A program made the translations under genes and the position numbers. Of a stretch of 64,000 nucleotides of DNA, positions 15,955 through 64,000 are shown piece by piece. The stretch covers positions 1-64,000 of the forward strand of contig NZ_MDGL01000032.1 of assembly GCF_002742265.1 (NCBI RefSeq), written 5' to 3'. The notes beneath the pieces were generated by a model. It did no database searches. It was not told the DNA's origin and saw only the letters and a list, made by a program, of their open reading frames with translations. Origin of the DNA: Maribacter sp. 4G9. Its GTDB lineage: Bacteria; Bacteroidota; Bacteroidia; Flavobacteriales; Flavobacteriaceae. Within the stretch, counting starts at the first letter, position 1; every line of letters begins with the position of its first letter.

Positions 15955-16806
15955 TTACATATTCTCCCTGTGAAATACCACCAGGCCTTCGATAGGCTTT
16001 TGGCGAATCACCCCAACTATCAAATCATTGCGCTGTAGCACGGTTGTAAGTTCATCCCTAAGAAAATAGGCTATACTGCCCACAAAATTAATGGGAACCT
16101 TGGTGGCCAAATCGAACTGCATGATGTAATTGTTGATGAACTGCTGGAAGCCTTTATCAATAACGCCCTTGGAATATGGATGATCCTTATTTTCTATCAA
16201 AAACCTGGCAAAAGTTGCCAAATACGTATTGGGATTAGGTTGTTTGTATAGATTATCCTTGATCACATCTGCATCCAAATTGTACTGGCTGGCAAATTTA
16301 TCAGCAAGATCTTTGGGAATTTTATTGAAATAATAATCACGTATCAATTTTCTTCCAAAGAAATTCCCGCTTCCGTCATCCATGGGAATATATCCCAAGG
16401 AAGTAACTTTTTGGTGGAGCTTTTCCCCATCATAGTAACTACAATTGGAGCCAGTTCCCAAAATACATACAATACCCTGTTGCCCAACCTTGGTTGTGGC
16501 AAATATGGCGGCATAGGTATCTTCCTTGACATCGGCTACGGCATTTGGAAAAAAGTCCTTAAAGATATCCTTAAGAAAATTTTTCATCCGGTCCGTACCA
16601 CAACCGGCACCATAAAAAAACAATTGGCTAACCTTTTCCCTATTCTTGGAAAGTTCAAAGTTATTCGCCAACCTATCCTCGATGACATCCTTGGTCAAAA
16701 CTTCCGGACTCAACCCTAGGGTCTGGGTCAAAAAGAGCTGATCACCATTTTCATCCAATGCGATCCAATCAGATTTGGTCGCTCCACTATCCACTATTAA
16801 AATCAT
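15955..16806 (-). CDS. BadF/BadG-type ATPase, N-acetylglucosamine kinase-like
   Basis: This 283-residue cytoplasmic kinase of the ASKHA fold would phosphorylate GlcNAc (or a related amino sugar) to the 6-phosphate. Motifs are IVDSGATKSDWIA (phosphate 1), GTGSNC (phosphate 2), GYIPMDDGSGNFFGRKL and NFVGSIAYFL (adenosine loop). The family also contains 2-hydroxyacyl-CoA dehydratase activators, but those need a CxxC-held cluster, not seen here, so a sugar kinase is more likely. It is separated from gap by a terminator, so it probably has its own promoter. Its product could join the amino-sugar catabolic genes at 51-60 kb. Confidence 0.75.
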   Translation of the reverse strand: MILIVDSGATKSDWIALDENGDQLFLTQTLGLSPEVLTKDVIEDRLANNFELSKNREKVSQLFFYGAGCGTDRMKNFLKDIFKDFFPNAVADVKEDTYAAIFATTKVGQQGIVCILGTGSNCSYYDGEKLHQKVTSLGYIPMDDGSGNFFGRKLIRDYYFNKIPKDLADKFASQYNLDADVIKDNLYKQPNPNTYLATFARFLIENKDHPYSKGVIDKGFQQFINNYIMQFDLATKVPINFVGSIAYFLRDELTTVLQRNDLIVGVIRQKPIEGLVVFHRENM

Positions 16807-33973: not shown

Positions 33974-34005
33974 AAAAGGGCGTGTTTTACACGCCCTTTT
34001 TTATT
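33974..34005 (+). terminator. Rho-independent terminator after SusD
   Basis: Twelve-bp arms (AAAAGGGCGTGT at 33974-33985 and ACACGCCCTTTT at 33989-34000) with a 3-base loop are followed by TTTATT. This is a strong terminator closing the susCD unit. Confidence 0.85.
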
Positions 34006-34087
34006 ATCCAAAAATTAAAAATGATTAATAAAAGTTTAATTGCCTACCCTTTTACCAACTTACATTTTTAAAACCTTACCTTTTATT

Positions 34088-34095
34088 TAAATTTG
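34088..34095 (+). promoter_or_regulatory. -7-like box upstream of the VCBS/ASPIC lipoprotein gene
   Basis: TAAATTTG matches the -7 consensus and lies between the SusD terminator and the next gene. No -33 TTTG is present at suitable spacing. A promoter here would be needed, because the terminator separates the gene from susCD. Confidence 0.3.
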
Positions 34096-34173
34096 TCAAT
34101 TGTCACACATTTCTAATTTTTAACCTGTGTAATCTAACTTTTTCCTGAACTATTAAACAACGTATTGTTTACC

Positions 34174-37491: not shown

Positions 37492-37599
37492 TCCAAATAC
37501 CAAAGACTAATTCCAAGCTTCAAAATATAGTGTAGATATAATGATACAATTTCAGGTAGTTTAACTTGAACTGTCCTATTAAATCTTATTTGACCTAAT

Positions 37600-39129: not shown

Positions 39130-39161
39130 CTTTCCTAAGAAATGTTTCGAGGACTACATCC

Positions 39162-44500: not shown

Positions 44501-47500
44501 AACAGGTACGACCGAATTGGTAACAATAGTAAAATTAGTAGTGCCTAACACATCAATCTGTACGCGTTCATCGTTGGCACAATCCAATGCACTCACTACG
44601 CTCAATGTTGGTACAACATCGGTTGGTGGATTGATTGTAGGCAGGTCAAAGGTAGTCTGACATCCGTTACCATCAATGGCATACACGGTTATATCCTGCG
44701 GGGAACCATTATCCACAATTTCAAAGGTATTACCGGATTGATAGTTTGAAAATCCAGTGATACTATACTGATATCCAGAACCAACAGTTCCAGGATCTAC
44801 TACATTCACGGTAATTGTAGTTGAACTGTATCGATTTGCACCGGGCTCACACGCAAAATCTGGTGCCGAAGCGGTAATGCTAAAGTCGGCTGGATTTGTA
44901 ATCGTATGTACGCCTGAAAGTACTTCACAACCCCGTTGAGTCACCACCTGAACCTGATAATCCCCTTGAGGTAAATTCGAGAATATTCCCGTATTGTTTC
45001 GGTCATGCTCAGAAGATGTGGTTAGGCTGTTCAGAATATAGGTAATTGGCATATCTTCCGATGTAAATGGTACCAATGCATTTGCAGGTCCCACGACCAC
45101 TTCAATGGTTCCGTCGTTGTTGTCGCGACAGGTAATATCCGTAGCCAATTCCGAAGTAATAACAGGTTGCGCAGCCTGATTCAGATTGATTCCCGCCACA
45201 TTATACTCGCAGAAATTTGTCCCGTCGAACATAATTCGGTCCACCACCAAAACATCATAGGTACCAGGAGTCAATCCGGTGAAAAGGGGGTCATCCTCTT
45301 GGGTAATAGGTCCCACCGAAGCACCGGTATAATCGGTTCCCGAAAGGATGTATCCAAAATCACCGCTTCCGCCAAAGGTTGCTATGGTAATCTCGCCATC
45401 GGCATCATTACAAGTTGAATCCGTAGAAAAAGTTCCCGTAGCCGAAAGAAAGTTATAGACGGTGGCGGTACCCTGACTGGTACATCCGTTTGCGTCCACT
45501 ACGTCCACTACATAATCCCCCGGACTTGCTACCGTAAAGGTATACACCCAATTGGTTCCATTATCGGTTGGAATTTGCTCATCACCTGCCAATGTAAAAC
45601 GAGGCGTGTTGACCGAATTGGGCATTGATACGGTAATATCAAAGGAGGTTGAACTAGGATTACACTGGTTCACGACCGTAAACGTTGGTATTGGAAGGTC
45701 TGGGTCCAGTTGAATGACCGTGGCGATATCGAAAGAGATACAACCACCACTATCGCGTACATAAATATCGTAGTCCCCTGCAGGGCCCACAAAAGTCGTT
45801 GTACTCACATAATCTGCCGGATAGGCGGGTTCCGGGGAACCATCTGGCACAAAAGCATACTCATACGGACCTCCTGAGCCACCGCGACCCTGCACCGTTA
45901 TCTGTCCGAAGGCATTACAATTCGCCGGAACATCTGAAATAACATCAATGGCAGGTAGGTTCTGATCTATAATAACACTCGCAGCATCCCTACAGGTATC
46001 CGTTTCATTCACCACGATAATCTGGTAATCCCCGGGCAACTCCGGATAGGTGTTGTTATAGGGCAAAGCTGTTGTACTAAAGGAAGGTACAATTACCGTT
46101 GTAACGTTTGTATCGTTGTTCAACAATTCTATTCTAAGAACATCCCCAATGGTATATCCAATTACCTGATACGCAATCTCCCCGTTTCTATTCAGGTCAC
46201 ATGCCCCGGGCGTGGAGGATGCCGTTATTTCCAAAGTGGAAGGCGCATCAATAGGCGGAATTTCCTGTTCGTACAAACATCCTGTCACCACATCCCTTAC
46301 CTGTACCGTATAGGCGATACCGTATTGAATACCATCCGTGGCATTGCTAAAGGTATGATCGTTAACACCTGGTGTATTGTTCAAGGGATAAAACGAAGGC
46401 TGTTGTGCCAATTTTATTTCATAGGAACCGGAACCTCCGCTAACGCTTACCGCATAGGTAAATCCACTATCGTCACAGGTTGGTGGTAATGGTGGTAAAA
46501 TGGGTGTAATGACAACCTCATTGGCGGTAATCGTGACTGTGTCAATGTCCGTACATCCATTGGCATCCAATGTAATTACCGTGTAATTTCCGGGAATAAG
46601 ATTTATATCATTAATGGTTATTGGAAAGGCCGATTGATTTTCCAAACGTGTAATTTCCATACCCGTATTGTCCTCAATCCTAAAATCAAAATTTGCCGTT
46701 CCATCCGTAACTCCATTGATGGTAATTCCTCCGCTCACGACACCACTACCATCGCAAATTGCAGGGTTTTGAGTAACCGCAGCATCGGGTGGCAAGGTTG
46801 TATCGGTACCGATTATGGCATTTGCCGGAGCCGTTTCACAACCTCTGGCATCCCTTACCAAGAAAGGATACGTACCTGCCGGTAAATCTGAATAAACTGT
46901 TTGGGAGCTCCATCCCGTTCCGTTGAAGTTCACTTCGTAGGGAGGTACTCCGCTTGTAGCGTCTGGGATGATGGTTACCACCCCATTATTTGGTGAACCA
47001 CAACTAACAGGTCTTGTAATGACAGAAGCAGCAGCGATATTCGCTGGCGGATTTAATATAAGCGGTGCCGAAGTGGCCTCGCAGCCTGCATTGGTAGTAT
47101 TATTATCGGTTATTCTAAATATATAGGTGCCATCAACGGCAGTGTCATAAAGGAAGGTACTGGAGGTATAGGGTGCAGGCGCACTAAACGTTGCACCGTT
47201 ATCGGAGCTCACCTCATACAGACCTGTTCCCGAAGCATATCCTCCTGTAACATCAACACGTATCTGACCGGGTGCACCACCGCAGGGTATTTCCGTTACG
47301 ACCGCGGTATTTACCCTGAGTTGCTGAGCTATGGTAATGACTATGGAATCGCTACAGTTGTTTCCATCCACAACCTCAATAGTATAGTTACCGGGAGTCA
47401 ATCCATTAAAAGTTCCCGTAGCTTGTAAGGCCCCTCCATTGATTCGGAATTCATGGGTTCCCAACGCAGCTGTACCTGCTGTTGACGTTACCACGGCCGT

Positions 47501-51571: not shown

Positions 51572-52381
51572 TCATTTCCCTGCCTCCAAGGCCTTTTTTA
51601 CGGATCCGTGTTTTTTTAACAAAGCCTCGGCCTGGTCGTAGCTTATACCCAATCCCTCCGCAACATACCGCGTTCCACGATCCACCAATTTATGGTTGGA
51701 TAGTTGCATGTTGACCATTTTATTGCCTTTCACCCTACCGATTTTTATCATCAGGGCCGTAGAAATCATATTCAGGACCAACTTTTGTGAGGTGCCACTT
51801 TTCATACGGGTACTTCCGGTAACAAATTCCGGTCCGACGTTTACTGCAATGGGTATATCCGTGGCCTTTGTAATGGGGGAACCAGGATTGTTAGTGATAC
51901 AAGCTGTAAGAATATTATTTTTTTGTGCCGATTCAAGACCACCTATAACGTAGGGTGTTGTGCCCGAAGCAGCGATGCCTACCACAACATCCATTTCATT
52001 AATTGCATGTTCCTTTAGGTCCAACCAAGCTTGTTGCTTATCATCTTCGGCATTTTCAACCGCTTTTCTAATGGCCTTATCACCTCCAGCAATTAGACCA
52101 ACGACGCGTTCGTGGGGCATTCCAAAAGTAGGAGGGATTTCAGAGGCATCCAGAATTCCTAATCGCCCACTGGTTCCTGCGCCAATATAAAACAAACGTC
52201 CCCCAAAATGAAAGCGCTCCACCAGGGCGTCTACCAACTTGGTGATTTGGGGAATTTCCAAGGCAACGGCATCGGCTATTTTCCTATCCTCTTCGTTCAT
52301 TTTTTTGAGAATGGAAACCGTATCCAACTGCTCCAGGTTATCGTGATTGGAGGGCGTCTCCGTAATTTTTTTGTATTCCAT
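51572..52381 (-). CDS. murQ: N-acetylmuramic acid 6-phosphate etherase MurQ
   Basis: This 269-residue cytoplasmic SIS-fold lyase cleaves the lactyl ether of MurNAc-6-phosphate, giving GlcNAc-6-phosphate and D-lactate. Motifs are LFYIGAGTSGRLGILDASE with a catalytic-type Glu, GLIAGGDKAIRKAVENAEDD, GIAASGTTPYVIGGLE and FVTGSTRMKSGTSQKLVLN. It is slightly shorter than the E. coli enzyme (about 300). The regulator gene lies 6 bp upstream, so the two are co-transcribed. Its substrate would come from AnmK at 59659 and its product would go to the deacetylase/deaminase fusion at 53333. Confidence 0.95.
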   Translation of the reverse strand: MEYKKITETPSNHDNLEQLDTVSILKKMNEEDRKIADAVALEIPQITKLVDALVERFHFGGRLFYIGAGTSGRLGILDASEIPPTFGMPHERVVGLIAGGDKAIRKAVENAEDDKQQAWLDLKEHAINEMDVVVGIAASGTTPYVIGGLESAQKNNILTACITNNPGSPITKATDIPIAVNVGPEFVTGSTRMKSGTSQKLVLNMISTALMIKIGRVKGNKMVNMQLSNHKLVDRGTRYVAEGLGISYDQAEALLKKHGSVKKALEAGK

Positions 52382-52387
52382 TAGTTA

Positions 52388-53137
52388 TTATAATATGCGT
52401 ATATCGTGATTTCTAAAGACCTCCAACATCCTATCGGATGGGTCCAATTCCGTTATCATGGTGTTGATGGTATTGATATCGCAGGTTTTGTATCTATGCT
52501 GCGAATTTAGCTTTTCCGAAATGGATAGTAAAACGGTTTTTTTCGCCGCCTTTATAACCGCCTTTTTTACTTGGACTATGTCCCAATCGAACTCGGTCAG
52601 TCCGTACACGGCATCCACATAGCCCGTACCTATAAAGCTATAGTCCACTTTTATTTCAGAAAGATTATGGATGGCGTTTGCCCCAATGGATATCTGTGCT
52701 TCCTTGGAAATTTGTCCACCAACGGAGATTACCGTAACGTTTGGTTTGTTGGAAAGCTCCATGGCCACGGGCAAACTGATGGTGAAACAGGTCAAACTTA
52801 GATTATCGGGAATCAAGCGCACCAGTTCCAAACAGGTGGTGCCCCCATCTATAAAAATGACGGCCCCGTCCTTGAGCAGGGTAACCGCTTTTTGGGCAAT
52901 GGTTACTTTTTGGTCCAGGGCATAAATGTTCGTATTCCGACTGTTACTATTGGTAAAACCCAATGAAATAGCCCCCCCATGAACCTTTTTAAGTTTGTTC
53001 TCCGCATCCAATTCCTTCACATCCCTGCGGATAGTATCAATGGAAACATCCAGGCTTTCGGCGATATCCGTCAATAGAATCCGGTTGTGCAATTCTACTT
53101 CGTTCAAGAGAATCTGTTGTCGTTCTTCCTTCAGCAT
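52388..53137 (-). CDS. DeoR/GlpR family transcriptional regulator
   Basis: This 249-residue regulator has a DeoR-type helix-turn-helix at about 1-57 (MLKEERQQILLNEVELHN, ESLDVSIDTIRRDVKELD) and a sugar-phosphate-sensing domain from about 70 (FIDGGTTCLELVRLIPD, SFIGTGYVDAVYGLTEFD). The ATG at 53137 was preferred to the TTG at 53167 because the latter overlaps a -7 box. It lies 6 bp before murQ and diverges from nagB across about 195 bp carrying repeats. It is likely to sense an amino-sugar phosphate (such as GlcNAc-6-P or GlcN-6-P) and control this recycling locus and itself. The ligand is inferred. Confidence 0.88.
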   Translation of the reverse strand: MLKEERQQILLNEVELHNRILLTDIAESLDVSIDTIRRDVKELDAENKLKKVHGGAISLGFTNSNSRNTNIYALDQKVTIAQKAVTLLKDGAVIFIDGGTTCLELVRLIPDNLSLTCFTISLPVAMELSNKPNVTVISVGGQISKEAQISIGANAIHNLSEIKVDYSFIGTGYVDAVYGLTEFDWDIVQVKKAVIKAAKKTVLLSISEKLNSQHRYKTCDINTINTMITELDPSDRMLEVFRNHDIRIL

Positions 53138-53164
53138 AGGTATTCGTATAAATAGAAAACAGCG

Positions 53165-53172
53165 CAAAGATA
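53165..53172 (-). promoter_or_regulatory. -7 box of the deoR-murQ unit
   Basis: On the minus strand TATCTTTG matches TAnnTTTG, 28 bases before the deoR ATG. The octamer AAAACAGC at 53156-53163, on the forward strand, lies next to it and matches the core of the direct repeats upstream of nagB, suggesting autoregulation. Confidence 0.4.
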
Positions 53173-53236
53173 ACTAAAATTTACACATGCCGTTTTATTC
53201 AGTAATAGAACTTAAAACATTAAATTTAGGTTAATT

Positions 53237-53275
53237 ATTGCAAAAAACAGCATTTATAAATTGCAAAAAACAGCA
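53237..53275. promoter_or_regulatory. Two 16-bp direct repeats, probable DeoR operators
   Basis: The identical sequence ATTGCAAAAAACAGCA occurs at 53237-53252 and 53260-53275, 23 bp from start to start (about two helical turns). They lie 18 bp before the nagB -7 box, covering the region where -33 should be, between two divergent genes of the amino-sugar locus. Confidence 0.6.
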
Positions 53276-53293
53276 AATTATAAAATTATTGCC

Positions 53294-53301
53294 TATATTT
53301 G
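53294..53301 (+). promoter_or_regulatory. -7 box of nagB
   Basis: TATATTTG matches TAnnTTTG. The direct repeats occupy the -33 position, and there is no TTTG at the right distance. Transcription would begin near 53308, about 25 bases before the ATG. Confidence 0.45.
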
Positions 53302-53332
53302 CACGAATTAAAATGTCAAACTTCAACATTAT

Positions 53333-55258
53333 ATGAAAACCACCATGGTCAAAAAAAAGCGGGACATCAACCACCAACCCATCGGACAGTTTGAGGAAAC
53401 CCGATTTGAAAAAATCCACAATGTAATTTTCTCGGATTCCAATGAAGCGTCCATTCGTGTAGCGGAAGAGATTGCCGAGCTCATCCGCAAAAAACAAAAT
53501 CAGAACAGAACATGTGTTCTGGGACTCGCTACAGGTTCCTCCCCTATCCGGGTTTATGAAGAGCTTGTAAGAATGCACAAGGAAGAAGGCCTTAGCTTTC
53601 AAAATGTAGTGACCTTCAATCTTGATGAATATCTGCCCATGGAAAAAAGCAATATTCAGAGCTATCACTATTTTATGCATGAGCACCTTTTCAACCATAT
53701 AGACATTGACCCTGAAAACGTGCACATTCCTGACGGTACGGTTGCTACGGAGGATACCACGGCCTACTGTCTTGGGTACGAAAGAAAAATCAAGGAATAC
53801 GGTGGCCTTGATTTTCAATTATTGGGTATTGGTAGAACGGGACATATTGGTTTCAACGAGCCCGGTTCCCACTACAATTCGGGCACTAGGGTCATCACCT
53901 TGGACCACATAACCCGGGTGGACGCAGCGCCATCCTTCCTAGGTATCGCCAACGTTCCCAGAAAAGCGATAACCATGGGTATTTCCACGGTTAGAAAGGC
54001 CAAGAGAATTATATTATTGGGCTGGGGAGAAAATAAGGCTGAAATCATCAAAAAAACCATTGAGGGTGAGATTTCCTCCCAGGTACCTGCAACCTATCTA
54101 CAAAACCATTCCAATTGCACCTTTATCTTGGATACCGGTGCGGCATCGGAATTGACCAAAAACAAAACTCCTTGGTTGGTGGATGCCTGTGAGTGGACGG
54201 AAGAGCTCAAGGCCAAGGCGATTATATGGCTCTGCGAAGAAACGGGCAAGACCGTTTTGAGCCTTACCGATAAGGATTATAACGATAACGGGATGGCCGA
54301 CCTGCTCTCCAAGGAGGACTCCTACGATCTAAATATTCAAATCTTCAATAAGCTGCAGCATACTATCACCGGATGGCCAGGTGGAAAACCAAATGCGGAC
54401 GATACCCATAGACCTGAAAGGGCAGAACCTGCCAAAAAACGGGTAATCATTTTTAGTCCCCACCCTGATGACGATGTCATTTCCATGGGAGGAACGTTTG
54501 ACAGATTGGTGGAGCAGGGTCATGAGGTACATGTGATCTATCAAACATCTGGAAACATAGCAGTTTCGGACACCGATGCCAGAAAATTTGCTGAAATCGC
54601 GATGAATTTGAATCCATCAGAAAAGGTTCAAAAAATCATCAACTCGATAAACAACAAACAGGATAGCCAGATAGATTCCCCTGAATTGCGAAGGTTAAAA
54701 GGAGACATTAGACGATCAGAATCCTATGCGGCCACACGATATATGGGGCTAAAGGATGCCCATGTCCACTTCCTGGATTTACCTTTCTACGAGACGGGAA
54801 CCATAAAAAAGAACAACCTGTCCGAGGAAGATATCGCACTTATGGTAGATATAATTAAACAGATAAAACCGCACCAAATATATGCAGCCGGTGACCTAGC
54901 AGATCCGCATGGTACCCATAAAGTCTGTTTGGATGCCGTTTTGGAAGCCCTTAAACGACTAAAACCGGAACCATTCATTAAAGATTGTTGGTTATGGCTG
55001 TACAGGGGTGCTTGGCACGAATGGGATATCAATGAGATAGAAATGTGCGTTCCCATGAGTCCGGGGCAAGTCCTGAAAAAACGAAATGCCATTTTCTGCC
55101 ATCAGTCCCAAAAGGACGGCGTCATGTTCCAGGGAGACGACTCGCGGGAATTCTGGATGCGTGCCGAGGAACGTAACAGGGACACGGCCAACAAATACAA
55201 GGACCTGGGCATGTCCTCGTATGCCGCCATGGAAGCTTTTGTGAGACATAAATTTTAA
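53333..55258 (+). CDS. nagB: Glucosamine-6-phosphate deaminase fused to PIG-L/LmbE deacetylase domain
   Basis: This is a 641-residue bifunctional candidate. Residues about 25-290 are NagB: GLATGSSPIRVYEEL, NLDEYLP near 97 with a catalytic-type Asp, and GIGRTGHIGFNEPGSHYNSG near 165. It converts glucosamine-6-phosphate to fructose-6-phosphate and ammonia. Residues about 370-640 are a PIG-L/LmbE-like domain: RVIIFSPHPDDDVISMGG has the zinc-binding HPDDD at about 376, and a second His motif DPHGTH is near 524. This superfamily deacetylates GlcNAc groups (GlcNAc-PI, MshB, BshB), so the C-terminal half may remove acetate from GlcNAc-6-phosphate. No separate nagA lies nearby. A terminator follows immediately. 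Confidence 0.92.
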   Translation: MKTTMVKKKRDINHQPIGQFEETRFEKIHNVIFSDSNEASIRVAEEIAELIRKKQNQNRTCVLGLATGSSPIRVYEELVRMHKEEGLSFQNVVTFNLDEYLPMEKSNIQSYHYFMHEHLFNHIDIDPENVHIPDGTVATEDTTAYCLGYERKIKEYGGLDFQLLGIGRTGHIGFNEPGSHYNSGTRVITLDHITRVDAAPSFLGIANVPRKAITMGISTVRKAKRIILLGWGENKAEIIKKTIEGEISSQVPATYLQNHSNCTFILDTGAASELTKNKTPWLVDACEWTEELKAKAIIWLCEETGKTVLSLTDKDYNDNGMADLLSKEDSYDLNIQIFNKLQHTITGWPGGKPNADDTHRPERAEPAKKRVIIFSPHPDDDVISMGGTFDRLVEQGHEVHVIYQTSGNIAVSDTDARKFAEIAMNLNPSEKVQKIINSINNKQDSQIDSPELRRLKGDIRRSESYAATRYMGLKDAHVHFLDLPFYETGTIKKNNLSEEDIALMVDIIKQIKPHQIYAAGDLADPHGTHKVCLDAVLEALKRLKPEPFIKDCWLWLYRGAWHEWDINEIEMCVPMSPGQVLKKRNAIFCHQSQKDGVMFQGDDSREFWMRAEERNRDTANKYKDLGMSSYAAMEAFVRHKF

Positions 55259-55265
55259 TACTCTT

Positions 55266-55303
55266 AAAAAAGGGCCTATTTTCGATTAAATAGGCCCTTT
55301 TTT
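55266..55303 (+). terminator. Terminator between nagB and the DigH-like gene
   Basis: Sixteen-bp arms AAAAAAGGGCCTATTT (55266-55281) and AAATAGGCCCTTTTTT (55288-55303) with a 6-base loop are followed by more T-rich sequence (AATTTTT). It lies between the stop of nagB and the ATG of the next gene at 55314. Confidence 0.85.
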
Positions 55304-55313
55304 AATTTTTCCC

Positions 55314-56846
55314 ATGCCCAAAAACTTGTTTGTAATTTTTCTTGTTATACTTGCCAGTTCCTGCGGTGTCTTTACCTCCAATATCCCACAGCCAAAAAAT
55401 GAATTTCGTGGAGTTTGGATTGCCACGGTGGTTAATATCGATTGGCCAAAAAACGGAATGGATTCCGTTGAAAAACAGAAGGAAGACTACCTTAGAATTT
55501 TGGATTTTTATAAAAGCTTACATTACAATGCCGTCATTGTACAAGTTCGTGCGGCAGGTGACGCTTTTTATCATTCGGATTACGCCCCATGGTCCCGATT
55601 TCTTACCGGAAAGGAAGGTGAAAACACCAAATGGAAGGAAGACCCTTTGGCATGGATGATCGATCAGGCCCATAAACGTGGTTTGGAGTTTCACGCTTGG
55701 CTAAATCCCTATAGGGCTACATTTGATTTAAATACCGATATTCTAAGTCCGGACCATGATTTTAACACGAACTCGGATTGGATGGTCAAATACGGAACCA
55801 AATATTATTATAATCCCGGATTGCCGGAGGTACAAGAAAAACTGACTTCAATTATAAAGGAACTGACCCTCGCATATGATATTGACGGGATTCATTTTGA
55901 TGACTATTTCTATCCCTACACCATTAAGGACGAAGTGTTTAATGACAGTATCACCTTTTACAACTGTTCCCAACCGCAGCAGTCTTTGGCCGACTGGCGG
56001 CGCAGCAACGTGGACAGCCTCATTAGAAAAAGCTATGCAACAATTAAGTATATCAAACCGTGGGTATCTTTTGGGGTGAGTCCGTTTGGCGTATGGAAGA
56101 ACAAGTCTACGGACCCACGGGGATCCGAAACCCAGGCGGGTCAAACAACTTATGAAAACCTATTTGCAGACCCCTTACTTTGGATGGAAAAGGGGTGGCT
56201 TGATTACATAGCCCCTCAAATTTATTGGAGTTTGGACCTTCCTGTTGCCTCCCATAAAACCCTTGTGGATTGGTGGGCAAAAAATAGTGAAAACAGTTAT
56301 GTATATATTGGGAATGGGGCGTACAAAATCCGAAACAATAGCGATCAGGCATGGAAGAATAAGAAAGAATTGCCTAATCAATTCAAGTTGGCACGGCAGA
56401 CCCCAGAGATATCAGGGAACATTTTATTCAGTGCAAAATCCCTGATGGATAAAAATCAGGATGTGGTTTCCTATCTGGGAAGAAAGTATTACAAATGGCC
56501 GGCCTTAACGCCCGAAGTGAAGAATGGCTACGAGGAGCGTTTAGAAAACGTCAACATTACCGGAAAAGTACAATCACCAGATTTTGTGACACTGACATTG
56601 GACCCTAAAAATGCAACTCAATATGTAATCGTGTATAAATCGGGGAAAAAAAATACCTCGGAATTAAAAAGTAAAAAACTTTTGGACAAGATTTTTGTTC
56701 CTACCGGATCAAACCAAGTTCAAATACCAAAATCGGTTCTAAAAAGAAATGATTTTGCCATCACTTTTTTGGACCGATATGGACGTGAATCTCAACCAAC
56801 AATCATACATTTAAATCAAATACCGGGGTATGGCAGAAAAAGATAA
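55314..56846 (+). CDS. GHL10 (DigH/YddW-like) family 10 glycosylhydrolase lipoprotein
   Basis: This 510-residue predicted lipoprotein (lipobox LASSC) has a (beta/alpha)8 GHL10 domain over about 25-390. Motifs are EFRGVWIATVVNIDWP, YNAVIVQVRAAGDAFY, GLEFHAWLNPYRA, DIDGIHFDDYFYPY carrying a probable acidic catalytic residue, and FGVSPFGVW. The E. coli member DigH cleaves denuded glycan strands of peptidoglycan. The C-terminal 100 residues look like an added beta-sandwich. The ATG is only 11 bp past a terminator and has no purine-rich ribosome site. The downstream permease gene overlaps its 3' end by 17 bp. Confidence 0.88.
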   Translation: MPKNLFVIFLVILASSCGVFTSNIPQPKNEFRGVWIATVVNIDWPKNGMDSVEKQKEDYLRILDFYKSLHYNAVIVQVRAAGDAFYHSDYAPWSRFLTGKEGENTKWKEDPLAWMIDQAHKRGLEFHAWLNPYRATFDLNTDILSPDHDFNTNSDWMVKYGTKYYYNPGLPEVQEKLTSIIKELTLAYDIDGIHFDDYFYPYTIKDEVFNDSITFYNCSQPQQSLADWRRSNVDSLIRKSYATIKYIKPWVSFGVSPFGVWKNKSTDPRGSETQAGQTTYENLFADPLLWMEKGWLDYIAPQIYWSLDLPVASHKTLVDWWAKNSENSYVYIGNGAYKIRNNSDQAWKNKKELPNQFKLARQTPEISGNILFSAKSLMDKNQDVVSYLGRKYYKWPALTPEVKNGYEERLENVNITGKVQSPDFVTLTLDPKNATQYVIVYKSGKKNTSELKSKKLLDKIFVPTGSNQVQIPKSVLKRNDFAITFLDRYGRESQPTIIHLNQIPGYGRKR

Positions 56847-58095
56847 GGGCGCATGGGGATGGGTCCCCATTTTATATTTCACGCAAGGTCTGCCCTATGT
56901 TTTGGTGGTGACGGTTTCGGTAATCATGTACAAACAATTGGGCGTAAGCAATTCAGACATTGGGCTGTATACCAGTTGGTTATACCTCCCCTGGGTGTTG
57001 AAACCGCTTTGGAGTCCTTTGGTAGATCTTAAAAGTACCAAACGAAAGTGGTTTTTGGCGATGCAACTGCTCATCGCCATTGCCTTGTTGGGGGTAGGAT
57101 TGAGCATACCCACCAACATGTTTTTCATAACGACCCTCGCCTGTTTTTGGATGGCTGCATTTGCATCGGCGACCAATGACATCGCTTCAGACGGGTATTA
57201 TATGCTCGGACTAACCGAAAAAAAGCAATCCTTTTTCGTAGGCATGCGAAGCACCTTTTACCGTTTGGCCATGGTTACAGGAGAAGGATTGATAGTCATT
57301 TTAGCCGGATTTCTAGAAAACAAATATGGAGACAACTCAAAAGCATGGAGCATCACAATGATTGCGGCGGCCGTCCTAATGCTGCTATTGACCCTCTCTA
57401 ATTTTTTTGTTACCCCAAAATATGAATCGGTAACGGCCTATGTAGCCGAAAAACCGAAAAGCTTTTTGGAAGTATTCAGCACCTTTTTTCAGAAGAAAAA
57501 TATAGGTATTGCTTTGGCCTTTATCCTAACATACAGGCTAGGGGAATCCCAATTGGTAAAGATGGCGGCCCCGTTCATGCTCGATAGTCCTGAAAAAGGC
57601 GGCCTTGGCTATTCTACAGAGCTTATTGGAACCATTTTTGGTACGGCAGGTGTCATCATGCTTTCCATTGGGGGCATTTTAGGGGGTATCTTGATATCCA
57701 GGGACGGACTCAAAAAATGGATGTTCCCTATGGTTCTTTCTTTAAATCTCCCCAATATATTCTATGCCATGTTGGCGATTACGAAAACAACACATGTGGT
57801 TCCTGTCACCGCTACTGTTATGTTCGAAAAGTTTGGGTACGGATTTGGTTTTGCTGCTTTCCTAATGTATCTCATCTATATTGCAGAAGGTAAATCCAAA
57901 ACCAGCCACTATGCCATTGCTACAGGTTTTATGGCCTTGGGTATGATGCTTCCGGGAATGATTAGTGGTTATGTGCAGCAATGGTTGGGCTATGACGGAT
58001 TTTTTATTTGGGTCGTAATCGCCGCATTGCCTTCCCTGATTTTATTAAAATACATTACTTACCCGCCAGAATTTGGTAAGAAAACCGATAACTAA
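56830..58095 (+). CDS. AmpG-like major facilitator permease
   Basis: This 421-residue inner-membrane protein has about twelve transmembrane helices. It fits the MFS AmpG/SLC33-type permeases: GWVPILYFTQGLPYVLVVTVS at the start, VLKPLWSPLVDLKSTKRKW (loop 2-3 motif) and YLIYIAEGKSKTSHYAIATGFMALG. AmpG imports GlcNAc-anhydroMurNAc-peptides into the cytosol. Its location between a murein glycan hydrolase and a NagZ-type GH3 strongly supports this role. The gene overlaps the hydrolase gene by 17 bp and precedes the GH3 gene by 1 bp, so they are co-translated. Confidence 0.88.
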   Translation: MAEKDKGAWGWVPILYFTQGLPYVLVVTVSVIMYKQLGVSNSDIGLYTSWLYLPWVLKPLWSPLVDLKSTKRKWFLAMQLLIAIALLGVGLSIPTNMFFITTLACFWMAAFASATNDIASDGYYMLGLTEKKQSFFVGMRSTFYRLAMVTGEGLIVILAGFLENKYGDNSKAWSITMIAAAVLMLLLTLSNFFVTPKYESVTAYVAEKPKSFLEVFSTFFQKKNIGIALAFILTYRLGESQLVKMAAPFMLDSPEKGGLGYSTELIGTIFGTAGVIMLSIGGILGGILISRDGLKKWMFPMVLSLNLPNIFYAMLAITKTTHVVPVTATVMFEKFGYGFGFAAFLMYLIYIAEGKSKTSHYAIATGFMALGMMLPGMISGYVQQWLGYDGFFIWVVIAALPSLILLKYITYPPEFGKKTDN

Positions 58096-58096
58096 C

Positions 58097-59659
58097 ATGA
58101 AGTCGTTACCTAATTATAATGAAGCCAAAAACACCTTAAGTACTGCCGAAAAAATTGGACAGTTCTTTATGCCCGCGGCATTCATTAATGATACCGAAGA
58201 AGAAATCCGTGCCTTGGAAGACGTGATCAGGAATCACGGTATTGGGGGCATTTGCTTTTTTCATTCCAGGGCCAGTGCGGCAACCAATTTCGAGGGAAAA
58301 AAAGAGGTCATTCGGAATGAGGAAAGTTTTGAAACCCTTAAATCATTGATAAAGAGATATCAGTCGGCATCAAAATACCCCCTATTTATTGCCATAGATG
58401 CAGAATGGGGCTTGGCTATGCGTATCGAAAATACACCACAGTATCCTTATGCGATTACTTTAGGCGCATTTAGTGGAAAGGAAGAACTCATATATGAAGT
58501 TGGGAAGAACATTGCCCAAGACTGCTTGGCAGCAGGCATACATTGGAACCTTTCTCCGGTAGTGGATATCAATAATAATCCAAACAACCCCGTGATCGGT
58601 TATCGGTCTTTTGGGGATAATCGAGAACAAGTAACGCAAAAAGCTTTGGCCTATATCAAGGGAACTGAAAGTGTTGGCGTGTTGACCAGTATCAAACATT
58701 TTCCGGGACACGGAGATACTTCGGTGGATTCCCATTTGGGGATTCCGATAATCGATAAATCGAAGAAGGAACTTTTGGAAAATGAACTCTATCCCTTTCA
58801 AAAAATAATATCGGAAGGAATCGATGCAGTTATGGTGGGACATTTGACCATTCCGGCTTTGGCGAAAGGCAAGACTTCACCCGCCAGTATTTCCCGTGAA
58901 ATCAGTACCGATTTCCTACGGGGCGAAATGCATTTCAAGGGAGTCGTTATTTCCGATGCCTTAAATATGCATGCCGTATCAAAGAATTATTCGGTGCCAG
59001 GTGAACTGGAATGGCTCGCCTACCAAGCTGGAAATGATATCCTTTGCTTTGCCGAACATGTTAAAGAAGGTATTGAAACCATCGCGAAGAATAGTACGGA
59101 AAAACAGTTGGAAGAAACCTTTGAACGGGTATGGAAGCTCAAGGAAAAGGCCATGGGAAATCCATACCATGATAAATTTACTGAACTATCCAAAAGCGCA
59201 GCATTGAACAGGAAAATCGCCGAGGAAAGCATTACGTTATACCACGGAAACGAGGCCGACATCAATACTTTCAGCAAAAAAAACTTCTGTACATTTACTT
59301 TAAAGCAACCGAAAGGAAATCCTTCACAAGAGGAAATACTTTCTTTTTTGGAAGCATCAAAACTGGAAATTAAGGATGAACAGGATATTCTTTTGCTCCT
59401 GACCCCACCCAAGGTAAAGCCTGCGAACAATTTTGGTTTTCTAAAAGCCGAAATCGATTTTATCAATACCCTACTTGAGGAAAAGAATGTGGTGCTCTAT
59501 CATTTTGGAAATCCGTATTCATTGAAACTTTTTGATATAAAAAAATCCTTGGCCACTGTGTTGGTCTATCAAGATTTTACCGAATTTCAGGATGTGGCCA
59601 CGGAACATTTCCTGGGAAAAATAAAGGCAAATGGAAAACTTCCGGTATCCCTAACTTGA
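58097..59659 (+). CDS. nagZ: Cytosolic GH3 beta-N-acetylglucosaminidase (NagZ-type)
   Basis: This 520-residue protein lacks a signal peptide and begins at the ATG 58097, 1 bp after the permease gene (an in-frame TTG at 58073 would only add an overlapping extension). It has GH3 signatures of NagZ: FIAIDAEWGLAMR, NLSPVVDINNNPNNPVIGYRSFG, KHFPGHGDTSVDSH near residue 198 and VVISDALNMHAVS with the nucleophile. About 170 C-terminal residues beyond the minimal NagZ length resemble a GH3 C-terminal domain. It would hydrolyse GlcNAc from imported anhydro-disaccharides, giving anhydroMurNAc for AnmK, whose start codon overlaps its stop by one base. Confidence 0.92.
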   Translation: MKSLPNYNEAKNTLSTAEKIGQFFMPAAFINDTEEEIRALEDVIRNHGIGGICFFHSRASAATNFEGKKEVIRNEESFETLKSLIKRYQSASKYPLFIAIDAEWGLAMRIENTPQYPYAITLGAFSGKEELIYEVGKNIAQDCLAAGIHWNLSPVVDINNNPNNPVIGYRSFGDNREQVTQKALAYIKGTESVGVLTSIKHFPGHGDTSVDSHLGIPIIDKSKKELLENELYPFQKIISEGIDAVMVGHLTIPALAKGKTSPASISREISTDFLRGEMHFKGVVISDALNMHAVSKNYSVPGELEWLAYQAGNDILCFAEHVKEGIETIAKNSTEKQLEETFERVWKLKEKAMGNPYHDKFTELSKSAALNRKIAEESITLYHGNEADINTFSKKNFCTFTLKQPKGNPSQEEILSFLEASKLEIKDEQDILLLLTPPKVKPANNFGFLKAEIDFINTLLEEKNVVLYHFGNPYSLKLFDIKKSLATVLVYQDFTEFQDVATEHFLGKIKANGKLPVSLT

Positions 59660-60744
59660 TGAAAAAAATGAAAGTCTATAAAGTCGTTGGAATGATGTCC
59701 GGTACCTCCTTGGACGGCCTGGACCTTGCGTACTGCCATTTCTGGAAAAAGAAAGACCATTGGCAATTTGAGATAAAGGCATCGGAAAGTATTTCCTATG
59801 CCCCAAAGATGCAAGGCGACCTAAGGGACGCTATACATCTATCGGCAGAAAAACTGCTGCAGCTACATAACGAATATGGCACTTGGTTGGGGGAACGGGC
59901 AAAGGAATTTATTCAAGAACAGAACCTGGAAGTCGATTTTATCGCCAGTCATGGCCATACCTCCCACCATCGCCCCGAGCTTGGACTTACCTTTCAACTG
60001 GGTTCCGGTCAACATCTGGCAAATGCCTCTGAACATAAAATTATTTGTGACTTTAGGAGCAACGACCTTGCCTTGGGAGGTCAAGGCGCACCCTTGGTAC
60101 CTATTGGTGACCGTTTACTTTTTAACGAATATGATTTCTGTCTGAATCTTGGTGGCATTAGCAACATTTCCTTTGAATTGAAAGGAAGAAGAATAGCCTA
60201 CGATATCGGGCTAGCCAATATGATATTGAATTATATTACGAGAAAAATTGATTTGGATTATGATGAAAATGGAACACTTGCTAGGTCGGGCACCATTATT
60301 CCAACGATGCTAAAAAAACTGAACGAACTATCTTACTACCTTCTGCCCCATCCCAAGTCCATTGGGTATGAGTGGTTCTTGGAGGAAGTGGTGCCCATCG
60401 TGGATGAAACCAAAGATAGCACTGAAAATCTGCTACATACGGCCGTACATCACATTTGTGAAAAAATTGCCCAACAAGTGGCGTTAAATGCCAATAAAAC
60501 CAATCAAAAATTGTTTGTCACCGGAGGAGGGGCCCTAAATACTTTTCTTATTGAAACTTTAGAACAAAAATTGGATTCTAAAATTGAAGTGGTAGTTCCA
60601 GAGAAGATATTGATAGAATTCAAGGAAGCACTTGTTTTTGCCTTTATGGGAGTACTAAGGTCTGAAAGGGAAATCAATGTGCTCAAAACGGTAACGGGCG
60701 CCCAAAGGGATTCATCCAGCGGTGTGATTTTCTTACCCAATTAA
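59659..60744 (+). CDS. anmK: Anhydro-N-acetylmuramic acid kinase AnmK
   Basis: This 361-residue cytosolic ASKHA kinase cleaves the 1,6-anhydro ring of anhydroMurNAc and phosphorylates it, giving MurNAc-6-phosphate. Motifs are VVGMMSGTSLDGLDLAYC, GHTSHHRPE, LGGQGAPLVPIGDRLLF with the catalytic Asp, LNLGGISNIS and FVTGGGALNTFL. The ATG at 59659 overlaps the upstream stop (TGATG), so it is translationally coupled. Its product is the substrate of MurQ at 51572. The next gene starts 44 bp later. Confidence 0.95.
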   Translation: MKKMKVYKVVGMMSGTSLDGLDLAYCHFWKKKDHWQFEIKASESISYAPKMQGDLRDAIHLSAEKLLQLHNEYGTWLGERAKEFIQEQNLEVDFIASHGHTSHHRPELGLTFQLGSGQHLANASEHKIICDFRSNDLALGGQGAPLVPIGDRLLFNEYDFCLNLGGISNISFELKGRRIAYDIGLANMILNYITRKIDLDYDENGTLARSGTIIPTMLKKLNELSYYLLPHPKSIGYEWFLEEVVPIVDETKDSTENLLHTAVHHICEKIAQQVALNANKTNQKLFVTGGGALNTFLIETLEQKLDSKIEVVVPEKILIEFKEALVFAFMGVLRSEREINVLKTVTGAQRDSSSGVIFLPN

Positions 60745-60788: not shown

Positions 60789-61049
60789 ATGTCCGACAAA
60801 CAAAAGCAAGCTAGCGCATACTGGAAAGAAAACGTCAAATATCTCTTCATCCTTTTGGCAATTTGGTTCTTAGTATCGTATGGGGCTGGAATCCTATTCA
60901 AGGATGCCATGGATTCAATCAAAATAGGAGGTTTTAAGCTAGGTTTTTGGTTTGCACAACAAGGTTCTATTTACGTTTTTGTAATCCTCATTTTTGTTTA
61001 TGTAAGGCTCATGAACAAATTGGACAAGAAATATGGGTACGATGAATAA
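60789..61049 (+). CDS. DUF4212 small subunit of a sodium:solute symporter
   Basis: This is an 86-residue protein with two transmembrane helices (about 16-38 and 54-77) and a conserved opening KQKQASAYWKENVKYLFILLAIWF plus a VSYGAGILF segment, the DUF4212 family. The family always sits directly upstream of an SSF-type symporter gene, and is thought to be its small partner subunit. Here the symporter begins 50 bp later. Confidence 0.92.
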   Translation: MSDKQKQASAYWKENVKYLFILLAIWFLVSYGAGILFKDAMDSIKIGGFKLGFWFAQQGSIYVFVILIFVYVRLMNKLDKKYGYDE

Positions 61050-61099: not shown

Positions 61100-62794
61100 A
61101 TGAGCGTTCAAATATGGACCTATCTTCTTGTCGGAATTACCTTCGCCTTATATATAGGCATCGCCATTTGGTCCCGTGCAGGTTCCACTAGGGATTTTTA
61201 TGTGGCTGGAGGCGGGGTTTCACCTTTGGCCAACGGTATGGCAACGGCCGCAGATTGGATGTCCGCAGCTTCTTTCATCTCCATGGCCGGCATCATTGCC
61301 TTTGCGGGATATGATGGTTCTGTTTATCTCATGGGATGGACCGGTGGATATGTACTTTTGGCGCTATTATTGGCTCCTTATCTTCGGAAATTTGGAAAGT
61401 TCACCGTACCAGATTTTATAGGAGATCGCTACTATTCTAAAACTGCCAGGATTGTGGCCGTAATCTGTGCCCTCATAGTTTCATTTACCTATGTTGCCGG
61501 ACAAATGCGTGGGGTCGGCGTAGTATTTTCCAGATTCTTGGAAGTGGATATCAATACCGGGGTCATCATAGGAATGGTCATCGTACTTTTTTATGCGGTT
61601 TTGGGAGGGATGAAAGGTATAACCTATACCCAAGTAGCACAGTACTGCGTGCTCATTTTCGCATTTATGGTGCCCGCCATATTTATTTCAATTCAGATGA
61701 CGGGCAATCCTATACCTCAATTGGGAATGGGGTCGAAACTAGCCGATGGCTCTGGAACGTATTTAATGGATAAATTGGACGGACTATCCACGGAATTGGG
61801 CTTCAACGCCTATACCAACGGCTCTAAATCCATGGCCGATGTATTTGCCATTACTTTGGCCCTTATGGTGGGTACAGCGGGGCTGCCACACGTTATTGTA
61901 CGCTTCTTCACGGTAAAAAGAGTCAAGGATGCAAGAAAATCGGCCGGACTGGCCCTGTTACTGATTGCAATACTCTACACTACCGCACCTGCAGTTTCTG
62001 TATTTGCAAGGACCAATATGATCAACACGGTCAACAACATGGAATATAGTTCTATGCCGGAATGGTTTACAAAATGGGAAACTACAGGTCTTTTTCAATT
62101 CGACGATAAGAACAAGGATGGTAAAATACAGTATGTAGCAGATAAAAGCACCAACGAACTTTACGTAGATCCCGATAGCATGGTACTGGCGAATCCTGAA
62201 ATAGCCAACCTACCTGCATGGGTCATCGCTTTGGTCGCAGCCGGAGGTTTGGCAGCTGCCTTATCAACTGCCGCTGGCCTTTTGTTGGTTATATCCTCTT
62301 CAGTATCCCATGATCTTATAAAAAAAGTATTCAAGCCCAATATTTCGGATAAAGGGGAACTATGGGCCGCACGTCTTGCGGCCACCGTGGCCGTGGTCAT
62401 TGCAGGATATTTTGGCATTAATCCACCCGGTTTTGTTGCGGCTGTGGTCGCCTTGGCCTTTGGATTAGCGGCTGCCTCGTTTTTTCCGGCAATTGTTCTG
62501 GGTATTTTTTATAAAAAAATGAATAAGGAAGGTGCAATAGCCGGAATGGTTACGGGCACGCTGCTGATGTTGTTCTATATGACCAAATTCAAGTTCGATT
62601 GGTTTGGCGGGGGTACACCAGAGGATTGGTGGTTTGGAATTTCGCCGGAAGGTTTTGGCAGTATCGCCATGGTCGTTAATTTTATAGTATCTATTGTCGT
62701 CATGAAGTTTACGCCACCACCACCTGAAAATGTACAGGAAATTGTGGAGGACATACGGATTCCAAGCGGATCCGGAGAAGCCAGCGGTCATTAA
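61100..62794 (+). CDS. Sodium:solute symporter family transporter (acetate/ActP-like)
   Basis: This 564-residue inner-membrane carrier has about 13 transmembrane helices of the SSF (LeuT-like) fold. The opening YVAGGGVSPLANGMATAADWMSAASFISMAGII and the TYVAGQMRG segment match the VC_2705/ActP-type group. A soluble-loop insertion at about 317-360 (KDGKIQYVADKSTNE) divides the last helices. Given the DUF4212 subunit before it and acs after it, the likely substrate is acetate or another short carboxylate. Confidence 0.9.
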   Translation: MSVQIWTYLLVGITFALYIGIAIWSRAGSTRDFYVAGGGVSPLANGMATAADWMSAASFISMAGIIAFAGYDGSVYLMGWTGGYVLLALLLAPYLRKFGKFTVPDFIGDRYYSKTARIVAVICALIVSFTYVAGQMRGVGVVFSRFLEVDINTGVIIGMVIVLFYAVLGGMKGITYTQVAQYCVLIFAFMVPAIFISIQMTGNPIPQLGMGSKLADGSGTYLMDKLDGLSTELGFNAYTNGSKSMADVFAITLALMVGTAGLPHVIVRFFTVKRVKDARKSAGLALLLIAILYTTAPAVSVFARTNMINTVNNMEYSSMPEWFTKWETTGLFQFDDKNKDGKIQYVADKSTNELYVDPDSMVLANPEIANLPAWVIALVAAGGLAAALSTAAGLLLVISSSVSHDLIKKVFKPNISDKGELWAARLAATVAVVIAGYFGINPPGFVAAVVALAFGLAAASFFPAIVLGIFYKKMNKEGAIAGMVTGTLLMLFYMTKFKFDWFGGGTPEDWWFGISPEGFGSIAMVVNFIVSIVVMKFTPPPPENVQEIVEDIRIPSGSGEASGH

Positions 62795-62829: not shown

Positions 62830-64000
62830 ATGAGTAACTATCACATCAAACACTTAGAGGAATATTATCAAGTTTATAGAAAATCGGTCCGTAATCCTGA
62901 GGCCTTTTGGGAAGAAATAGCCGAGGAGCATTTTGTATGGCGAAAACGATGGGATAACGTGCTGAGTTGGGATTTTACAAAACCCGAAATTAAATGGTTT
63001 GAAGGTGCCCAATTAAATATTACCGAAAACTGTATCGACCGTCATTTGCCCACACGGGGCAACAAAACGGCCATTCTTTTTGAGCCCAACGACCCAAAAG
63101 AAGAAGCCGAACATATTACCTACAGACAGCTTCACGAACGTGTGTGCAAAATGGCCAATGTGCTCTTGGAAAAAGGCGTGAAAAAAGGTGACCGTGTCTG
63201 CATTTACCTGCCCATGATTCCCGAATTGGCCATTTCGGTATTGGCGTGTGCAAGAATCGGTGCCATACATTCCGTAGTGTTTGCCGGTTTTTCATCCAAT
63301 GCCCTTTCAACAAGAATCAATGATTCCGATTGTAAACTGGTGATTACTTCGGATGGTTCGTACAGAGGTTCCAAGACCATCGATCTAAAGGGAATTGTGG
63401 ATAAGGCCTTGGAAGGGTGTCCTGGAGTAGAAACCGTATTGGTAGCCAAACGTATCCATAGTGAAATAGAAATGGTTCCCGAAAGAGATCATTGGTTACA
63501 ACCTCTTTTGGACGATGCTTATGGCGATAATGTAGCCGAAATCATGAATGCGGAAGACCCACTGTTTATTTTATACACTTCAGGTTCCACAGGGAGACCC
63601 AAAGGAATGGTGCATACTACGGCGGGTTATATGGTCTATACCGCCTATACCTTCAAAAATATATTTCAGTACAGGGAAGATGATGTGTACTGGTGTACGG
63701 CCGACATTGGTTGGATTACGGGACATTCCTATATCGTCTACGGGCCTTTGGCCAATGGCGCTACTACAGTAATGTTCGAAGGGGTGCCATCTTACCCTGA
63801 TTTTGGCAGGTTTTGGGAAGTGGTTCAAAAACATAAAGTAACCCAATTCTATACGGCACCAACGGCCATTAGGGCACTTGCCAAGGAAAATCTCGATTTT
63901 GTTGAAAAATACGATCTATCAAGCCTTAAAGTATTAGGCTCCGTGGGTGAGCCCATCAATGAGGAAGCATGGCATTGGTACAATAACAACGTGGGCAAAA
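62830..64000 (+). CDS. acs: Acetate-CoA ligase (acetyl-CoA synthetase), 3' end cut by window
   Basis: The first 390 codons are present, starting at ATG 62830; the C-terminus lies outside the window. The product activates acetate with ATP and CoA to acetyl-CoA in the cytosol. Motifs are FWEEIAEEHFVWRKRWD near the N-terminus, YLPMIPELAISVLACARIGAIHSVVFAGFS, the A3 motif ILYTSGSTGRPKGMVHT, WCTADIGWITGHSYIVYGPL, FYTAPTAIRAL and LGSVGEPINEEAWHWY. It follows the symporter gene by 35 bp, giving an uptake-plus-activation operon. Confidence 0.96.
   Translation, partial: MSNYHIKHLEEYYQVYRKSVRNPEAFWEEIAEEHFVWRKRWDNVLSWDFTKPEIKWFEGAQLNITENCIDRHLPTRGNKTAILFEPNDPKEEAEHITYRQLHERVCKMANVLLEKGVKKGDRVCIYLPMIPELAISVLACARIGAIHSVVFAGFSSNALSTRINDSDCKLVITSDGSYRGSKTIDLKGIVDKALEGCPGVETVLVAKRIHSEIEMVPERDHWLQPLLDDAYGDNVAEIMNAEDPLFILYTSGSTGRPKGMVHTTAGYMVYTAYTFKNIFQYREDDVYWCTADIGWITGHSYIVYGPLANGATTVMFEGVPSYPDFGRFWEVVQKHKVTQFYTAPTAIRALAKENLDFVEKYDLSSLKVLGSVGEPINEEAWHWYNNNVGK

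Follow-up and report, generated by a model that had tools for sequence, protein, structure and literature searches.

The window analyzed here is a stretch of 64,000 nucleotides from Maribacter sp. 4G9 (contig NZ_MDGL01000032.1, positions 1 to 64,000), which carries at 51572-60744 a compact block of seven genes related to the salvage of murein sugars (Table 1). The seven reading frames named in an earlier note on this DNA were all recovered from the list of open reading frames (ORFs) at the same positions, and they match the named families in Pfam and NCBIfam profiles. murQ and the gene for a DeoR-type regulator are encoded on the minus strand, and the genes for a NagB::PIG-L fusion protein, a GHL10 lipoprotein, an AmpG-type permease, a NagZ-type GH3 protein and AnmK on the plus strand. 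The regulator would be 30 nt longer if translated from a TTG at 53167. The fusion and GHL10 genes are separated by 55 bp, the GHL10 and ampG genes overlap by 17 bp, and ampG and the GH3 gene lie 1 bp apart. Between the GH3 gene and anmK there is a gap of 8 bp, which becomes an overlap with either of the two earlier anmK starts (59656, 59659). The description of the last four genes as overlapping or within 1 bp of each other thus fits two of the three junctions, and fits the third only if one of the earlier anmK starts is used. The reading of the block as a locus for murein sugars that includes a regulator gene was borne out by the families assigned for AmpG-type import, NagZ, AnmK, MurQ and NagB, and by the conservation of gene order.

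Table 1. Genes and sequence elements of the murein-sugar block and associated features, in window coordinates (profile scores in bits).
Feature	Position	Strand	Evidence and remarks
BadF-type amino-sugar kinase, candidate GlcNAc kinase	15955..16806	-	about 36 kb from the block
murQ, N-acetylmuramic acid 6-phosphate etherase	51572..52381	-	TIGR00274 305.2 (cut-off 302, over); PRK05441 377
DeoR/GlpR-type regulator	52388..53137	-	PF00455 and PF08220 over cut-off; ATG start 53137
Two copies of TGCAAAAAACAGCA, candidate DeoR-type operator	53239-53252, 53262-53275	+	23 bp apart
TATATTTG, promoter box	53294..53301	+	TAnnTTTG boxes also in relatives' intergenic regions
NagB::PIG-L fusion, 641 aa	53333..55258	+	NF002557 1064 (cut-off 384); TIGR00502 266.6 (cut-off 236.9, over); PF02585 71.2 (cut-off 28.2, over)
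Terminator-like hairpin between fusion and GHL10 genes	55264..55305	+	perfect 18 bp stem, then Ts
GHL10 lipoprotein, DigH/Cwp19 relative, predicted glycan-strand cleavage	55314..56846	+	PF02638 227.9 (cut-off 27.9, over)
AmpG-type permease of the major facilitator superfamily	56830..58095	+	TIGR00901 196.2 (cut-off 350, under); best NCBIfam family
NagZ-type GH3 protein	58097..59659	+	PF00933 240; PRK05337 157 (cut-off 207, under); ATG start 58097
anmK, anhydro-N-acetylmuramic acid kinase	59668..60744	+	NF007144 518 (cut-off 436, over); start 59656, 59659 or 59668
DUF4212 small symporter subunit, possible operon tail	60789..61049	+	TIGR03647 121
Sodium/solute symporter, VC_2705 type (acetate-symporter relatives)	61100..62794	+	TIGR03648 862
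acs-like acyl-CoA synthetase, cut by window end	62830..64000	+	named by sight; same gene matched in L079 and L102

The gene order singled out by the earlier note was searched for in relatives of the locus, using the best 80 of 584 confirmed stretches from a scan with an ampG alignment (short loci included), in which genes were labeled by BLAST matches at 1e-10 to the window genes. In 43 of these 80 ampG loci the labeled plus-strand genes follow the order GHL10-ampG-GH3, with other genes allowed to intervene. All of murQ, deoR, the fusion gene, ampG, the GH3 gene and anmK are present in 16 loci, which come from Croceivirga (2), Muriicola, Flagellimonas (3), Robiginitalea, Muricauda (2), Allomuricauda (3), Croceitalea, Eudoraea, Kriegella and a metagenome-assembled genome (MAG) of the Flavobacteriales. 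Twelve of the 16 also contain the GHL10 gene, and a DNA search confirmed its absence from the other four (Robiginitalea L083, Kriegella L102, L111 and L141). Loci of Flavobacterium and Cyclobacteriaceae retain the GHL10-ampG-GH3 core. Recurring as it does across several genera, the arrangement is not due to chance. The block is nevertheless patchy, since the permease was matched at 1e-60 or better in 15 of 197 genomes of a class-level sample.

The component most worth following is the fusion protein. It consists of a glucosamine-6-phosphate (GlcN-6-phosphate) deaminase domain (residues ~35-275) and a PIG-L deacetylase domain (~370-640), the second of which the earlier note did not mention. In two alignments, of 18 and 19 fusions, the PIG-L metal-site residues H377, D379, D380, H526 and H529 are invariant, as are D98, H171 and E176 of the NagB half. 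For the rat PIG-L protein, His49, Asp52 and His157 have been proposed as ligands (PMC4101496). Among solved proteins, the PIG-L half is closest to diacetylchitobiose deacetylases, whether compared as a single sequence (1.9e-6), as a profile (5.6e-10) or by fold (1.3e-7). The structure models are weak (mean predicted local distance difference test score 71.0 for the whole fusion and 63.6 for the PIG-L half, with the last 60-84 residues worst), and only the fold ranking of the PIG-L half was used from them. The genomic surroundings of the fusion vary: it neighbors murQ and a kinase gene in one locus (L029), GHL10 and anmK in two (L033, L172) and ampG in another (L035), and it lies 3' of genes of SusC/SusD size, judged by size and sight, in two loci of the window's family (L024, L025). 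Many other fusion loci that were fetched have none of the window genes close by.

In the established pathway, the product of MurQ, N-acetylglucosamine 6-phosphate (GlcNAc-6-phosphate), must be deacetylated before NagB can act on it, and NagA is the enzyme of this step in E. coli recycling. NagA was not found in the Maribacter genome (99.98% complete), either with TIGR00221 (pieces up to 30.8 bits, compared with a cut-off of 225.65; best whole protein 53.5 bits) or with A3, a NagA profile built in this analysis that includes E. coli NagA (pieces of at most 32.8 bits). When checked as a probe, A3 gave 271.6-506.4 bits for all ten distinct solved sequences named NagA, which we take to include those of B. 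subtilis, Thermotoga and Mycobacterium, whereas no other amidohydrolase scored above 51.1 bits. The genome contains 16 places matched by Amidohydro_1. Of the ten that were typed, eight have a prolidase model as their closest profile, with scores below its cut-off, and the other two are HutI and a dihydroorotase; none of the ten is NagA. The remaining six match only in part and lie in frames of 436-1035 aa. NagA was likewise not found in the Maribacter MAG examined (L094).

A sample of 118 Bacteroidota genomes, drawn evenly across the phylum, was used to relate NagA to the fusion. TIGR00221 and A3 picked the identical 18 genomes as NagA-positive. The fusion is present in 39 genomes and NagB in any form (at 1e-40) in 51. 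NagA was found in 8 of the 39 fusion genomes (leaving 31 without it), in 9 of the 12 genomes with stand-alone NagB only and in 1 of the 67 genomes lacking NagB. The association is significant by Fisher's test both by genome (p 0.001) and by family (p 0.0065; NagA in 3 of 13 fusion families and in all five stand-alone families, with one family falling into both groups). In a closer set, made up of the Maribacter genome and 24 genomes reached via 24 of the 80 loci, all 25 carry the fusion and 23 lack NagA; the A3 scores are bimodal (at least 308 bits or below 33), and completeness values for the 24 relatives were not given. The two NagA-positive genomes belong to Arenibacter and Kriegella. In Arenibacter, the ampG locus has no fusion gene, the fusion is encoded elsewhere, and nagA lies near a stand-alone nagB (L195, L198).

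The permease is 26% identical to E. coli AmpG, and the four distinct solved sequences that it matched are all AmpG or muropeptide transporters. The GH3 protein carries KHFPGHGDTSVDSHLGIP (residues 199-216 of the ORF read from 58100), which fits KHFPGHG..DSH and thereby what we take to be the NagZ motif with its Asp-His dyad; no signal peptide was seen on it. A kinase is required in addition, because NagZ also releases GlcNAc. This GlcNAc kinase is likely the BadF-type protein encoded about 36 kb away, whose solved relatives are named as a putative N-acetylmuramic acid (MurNAc) kinase (4.8e-47) and an N-acetylglucosamine kinase (8e-39); the protein itself scores under the Pfam and NagK cut-offs.

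The GHL10 protein has by sight a lipoprotein-type N-terminus (LASSC). It is 39.6% identical to E. coli DigH, which retains the polar residues that are invariant in flavobacterial GHL10 proteins. A cytosolic AmpD was not recognized in the genome, where the sole Amidase_2 match has a lipoprotein-type N-terminus; for this reason, peptides are probably removed outside before import, as has been suggested for Tannerella forsythia. The window also encodes an Amidase_3 protein with a signal-like start (11430-12680), and a related Amidase_2 gene lies directly 5' of the GHL10 gene in 9 of the 80 loci.

Taken together, these features make a role in murein-sugar salvage well supported, and we judge it rather likely that the block is a regulated locus for the salvage of peptidoglycan sugars in which the PIG-L half serves as GlcNAc-6-phosphate deacetylase in place of NagA. 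All enzymatic steps, and the deacetylase substrate above all, are ones that we infer. Outside the cytoplasm, amidases would strip the peptides and the GHL10 lipoprotein would cut the bare glycan. The AmpG-type permease would import the disaccharide and NagZ would split it, after which AnmK and MurQ would convert the anhydroMurNAc half to GlcNAc-6-phosphate, and a kinase encoded elsewhere would convert GlcNAc to the same compound. The PIG-L half would most likely deacetylate GlcNAc-6-phosphate and pass GlcN-6-phosphate to the NagB half, yielding fructose-6-phosphate. The earlier note had called the locus complete and described one pathway from wall glycan to fructose-6-phosphate. The textbook form of this claim was rejected because no NagA was found; neither NagA nor a cytosolic AmpD was found in the genome, the candidate GlcNAc kinase lies outside the block, and the conversion of GlcNAc-6-phosphate to GlcN-6-phosphate would need the PIG-L half. 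The first reading therefore requires correction on three points: the locus is not textbook-complete, not necessarily devoted to recycling, and not unprecedented in Bacteroidota.

Beyond this locus, we lean, with somewhat less assurance, towards a general proposal. The PIG-L half of the fusion (NCBIfam PRK02122) may represent a second family of GlcNAc-6-phosphate deacetylases, unrelated to NagA and replacing it in many Bacteroidota, such that one bifunctional protein would turn GlcNAc-6-phosphate from murein or chitin into fructose-6-phosphate. If so, another activity would be added to a family named only 'glucosamine-6-phosphate deaminase-like', and what looks like a gap in the amino-sugar metabolism of many Bacteroidota would be closed. 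No literature on the PIG-L half of NagB was found, in a search whose coverage lacked most subscription journals.

Several observations weigh against a replacement of NagA by the fusion or against parts of the proposed pathway. NagA coexists with the fusion in the eight genomes mentioned above, with adjacent genes in one of them (G068), and 3 of the 12 genomes with stand-alone NagB lack NagA. In a control at 1e-30, TIGR00221 missed the NagA proteins of B. subtilis and Bacteroides ihuae, so the first genome search can miss NagA, and the Fisher tests, which are not tree-based, take no account of relatedness above the family level. E. coli D141 is replaced by T169 in the NagB half, whereas D72, H143 and E148 (usual E. 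coli numbering, letters checked) are kept as D98, H171 and E176. The AmpG and NagZ scores are both under their curated cut-offs, and these names rest on the best family together with the solved relatives and the motif described above. Among published sources, NagA is annotated along with NagB1 and NagB2 in a paper on a Maribacter genome (PMC10942906), and NagA does not figure among the most frequent gaps in Bacteroidetes reported by a gut-genome survey (PMC5583593). Deletion of the chitin-locus nagB in Flavobacterium johnsoniae was reported to have no effect on growth on chitin, in a genome with three more nagB-like genes (PMC5127042). Finally, in five genomes of one family, none with NagA (L190, L191, L209, L210, L211), a separate PIG-L gene lies 15-40 bp 3' of nagB, and its product starts with a signal-peptide-like stretch, pointing to deacetylation before import. 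We had considered this gene pair as a split form of the fusion, an idea weakened by the signal-like N-terminus, which places the step outside the cytoplasm; the five genomes may instead have an extracytoplasmic deacetylation route. The coexistence with NagA and these signal-like N-termini would also suit a locus with the same salvage function in which the PIG-L half acts on free GlcNAc, on the disaccharide or on a thiol precursor, while some unrecognized enzyme takes the acetyl group off GlcNAc-6-phosphate; the solved PIG-L relatives are indeed named for unphosphorylated GlcNAc sugars or for bacillithiol and mycothiol precursors. We nevertheless consider such a substrate unlikely: MurQ makes GlcNAc-6-phosphate, for which a deacetylase is needed, none of the ten amidohydrolases typed at the 16 places is NagA, BshB models match the fusion at just 33-36 bits, and fusion to NagB points to neighboring pathway steps.

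Three further alternatives concern other components of the block. That the permease imports a non-murein substrate and the block is merely a loose neighborhood would agree with its score under the TIGR00901 cut-off and its low identity to E. coli AmpG. We regard this as very improbable, given that AmpG is its best NCBIfam family, that all its solved relatives are AmpG or muropeptide transporters, and that it keeps its order with GHL10 and NagZ in more than half of the ampG loci; moreover, the AmpG of T. forsythia is reported to work at 27% identity to the E. coli protein (PMC7670621). The nature of the GHL10 protein is more evenly balanced. C. difficile Cwp19, reported to be a lytic transglycosylase (PMC6016235), matches GHL10 at 1.7e-97 (330.6 bits), and the operon partner AnmK needs anhydroMurNAc, so that GHL10 may be a Cwp19-like transglycosylase that generates anhydroMurNAc ends itself. 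However, Cwp19 is matched about as well by DigH (5.5e-100, 338.2 bits), which is described as hydrolyzing bare glycan and freeing anhydro ends (PMC12288456), and four of the 16 loci with anmK and the other genes have no GHL10 gene. We would give the transglycosylase only slightly less than an even chance. The earlier designation "DigH-like" is thus justified by sequence identity, but not as a statement that the protein is a hydrolase.

It is also quite conceivable, if in our view the less probable option, that the locus acts mainly as a polysaccharide utilization locus that scavenges foreign peptidoglycan, instead of recycling the cell's own wall. SusC and SusD genes lie directly 5' of GHL10 in 7 of the 80 loci (L078, L079, L084, L089, L091, L092, L096), as identified by BLAST with the L084 pair, which was typed by Pfam with the SusD match under its cut-off. 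The window block, on the other hand, has no SusC or SusD, and the GHL10 lipoprotein cysteine is not followed by an acidic stretch, which we take to be a surface-export signal, so that export to the surface is not suggested. T. forsythia is reported to use AmpG for such scavenging (PMC7670621), but one pathway can serve both recycling and scavenging. A conserved and probably self-regulated locus for salvage, with the fusion as likely replacement of NagA, would, if this reading is right, be suited to the genetic study of flavobacterial murein salvage, including the distinction between recycling of the own wall and eating that of others.

Clustering of ampG with salvage genes in Bacteroidota is already known from T. 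forsythia, where an AmpG-type permease gene is transcribed with MurNAc catabolic genes in a nine-gene transcript that includes murT, murK and murQ (Tanf_08345-08385), and peptide-free disaccharides are the reported main substrates (PMC7670621). T. forsythia differs in having no predicted AnmK and using MurT/MurK, whereas AnmK is encoded in the window block together with GHL10, NagZ, a DeoR-type regulator and the NagB::PIG-L fusion. Several Bacteroidales loci are close to the T. forsythia cluster and pair ampG with genes for SpoIID, NamZ, MurQ and a BadF-type kinase instead. The label MurT-like was rejected for a DUF5009 protein, since the paper describes MurT as a sodium symporter. The window shares with E. 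coli recycling (AmpG, NagZ, AmpD, AnmK, MurQ, NagA, NagB, NagK) the core chemistry from disaccharide to GlcNAc-6-phosphate, but the genes are scattered in E. coli, where NagB, unlike that of the window, bears no PIG-L domain, and NagA and a cytosolic AmpD were not found in the window genome. The chitin locus of F. johnsoniae has its nagB (Fjoh_4557) in a SusCD block with a hexosaminidase gene, resembling by size and sight the fusion loci L024 and L025. It is devoted to chitin, not murein, a separate NagA is predicted (Fjoh_3974), the NagB could not be expressed, and no PIG-L domain is mentioned in the available part of the paper (PMC5127042). The Pyrococcus diacetylchitobiose deacetylase (Dac), representing the closest solved relatives of the PIG-L half, is a stand-alone archaeal enzyme that acts on unphosphorylated chitobiose and has no NagB fusion. 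Cwp19 and DigH share the GHL10 domain, but Cwp19 carries CWB2 repeats and works as a surface autolysin (PMC6016235), and DigH functions in the separation of E. coli cells, with no recycling genes next to its own.

The intergenic region between the regulator and fusion genes contains two copies of TGCAAAAAACAGCA, a pair that is probably the operator of the DeoR-type regulator. The 4.6 Mb of genome sequence searched have no other exact copies and four further ones at one mismatch, and the pattern read backwards, as a control, gave 3 matches versus 6. At up to two mismatches, TGCAAAAAACAGCA was found in the intergenic regions after deoR of 20 of 25 relatives, the misses being L078, L086, L101, L115 and L141; in L086 and L141 the intergenic region is shortened by an over-long ORF call. 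TATATTTG is presumably a Bacteroidota -7 type promoter box. The regulator probably represses its own divergent promoter via the TGCAAAAAACAGCA sites, a direction of regulation that we infer. The hairpin behind the fusion gene, overlooked in the earlier note, may split the transcript and allow the fusion to be made in excess of the remaining proteins. A strict test (perfect stem of at least 8 bp, within 130 bp after the fusion, followed by Ts) found such a hairpin in 4 of 21 relatives (L081, L083, L086, L094). Scans for promoters (21 versus 29.6 in shuffled sequences) and terminators (17 versus 14.3) gave counts not clearly above the shuffles, and the 18 bp hairpin is distinctive by its stem length only.

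Three same-strand genes 3' of anmK (DUF4212, symporter and acs-like), at gaps of 44, 50 and 35 bp, had also been missed. The idea that the actP-acs genes 3' of anmK act as an acetate sink was weakened: they occur in only 2 of the 80 loci (Arenibacter, Kriegella), and among the 24 genomes these are the NagA-positive pair. On the other side, the block adjoins a gene for a repeat-rich protein of 2865 aa with a signal-like start (41591-50188); several relatives have long ORFs on the same strand beside a GSDH gene. A possible separate polysaccharide locus at 28826-40649 contains an ORF of SusC size, a SusD gene (32198-33952) and a gene for a sulfatase with an SGSH C-terminal domain (39162-40649).

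Individual loci show further variations. A 784 aa protein in L186 that resembled a diverged fusion has no HPDD motif and was rejected as support. A methyltransferase gene lies between the GH3 gene and anmK in the seven SusC/SusD loci and in L088. In Flavobacterium L103, the gene 5' of GHL10 (6886-8094) encodes an AnmK of another subfamily (NF007149, 706 bits), in contrast to the NF007144 type 3' of the GH3 gene in the window. Finally, 20 of the 80 loci contain a gene for a GNAT acetyltransferase of ~160 aa (e.g., L084:9513-9998), in 17 cases between GHL10 and ampG, which perhaps re-acetylates sugars or peptides.

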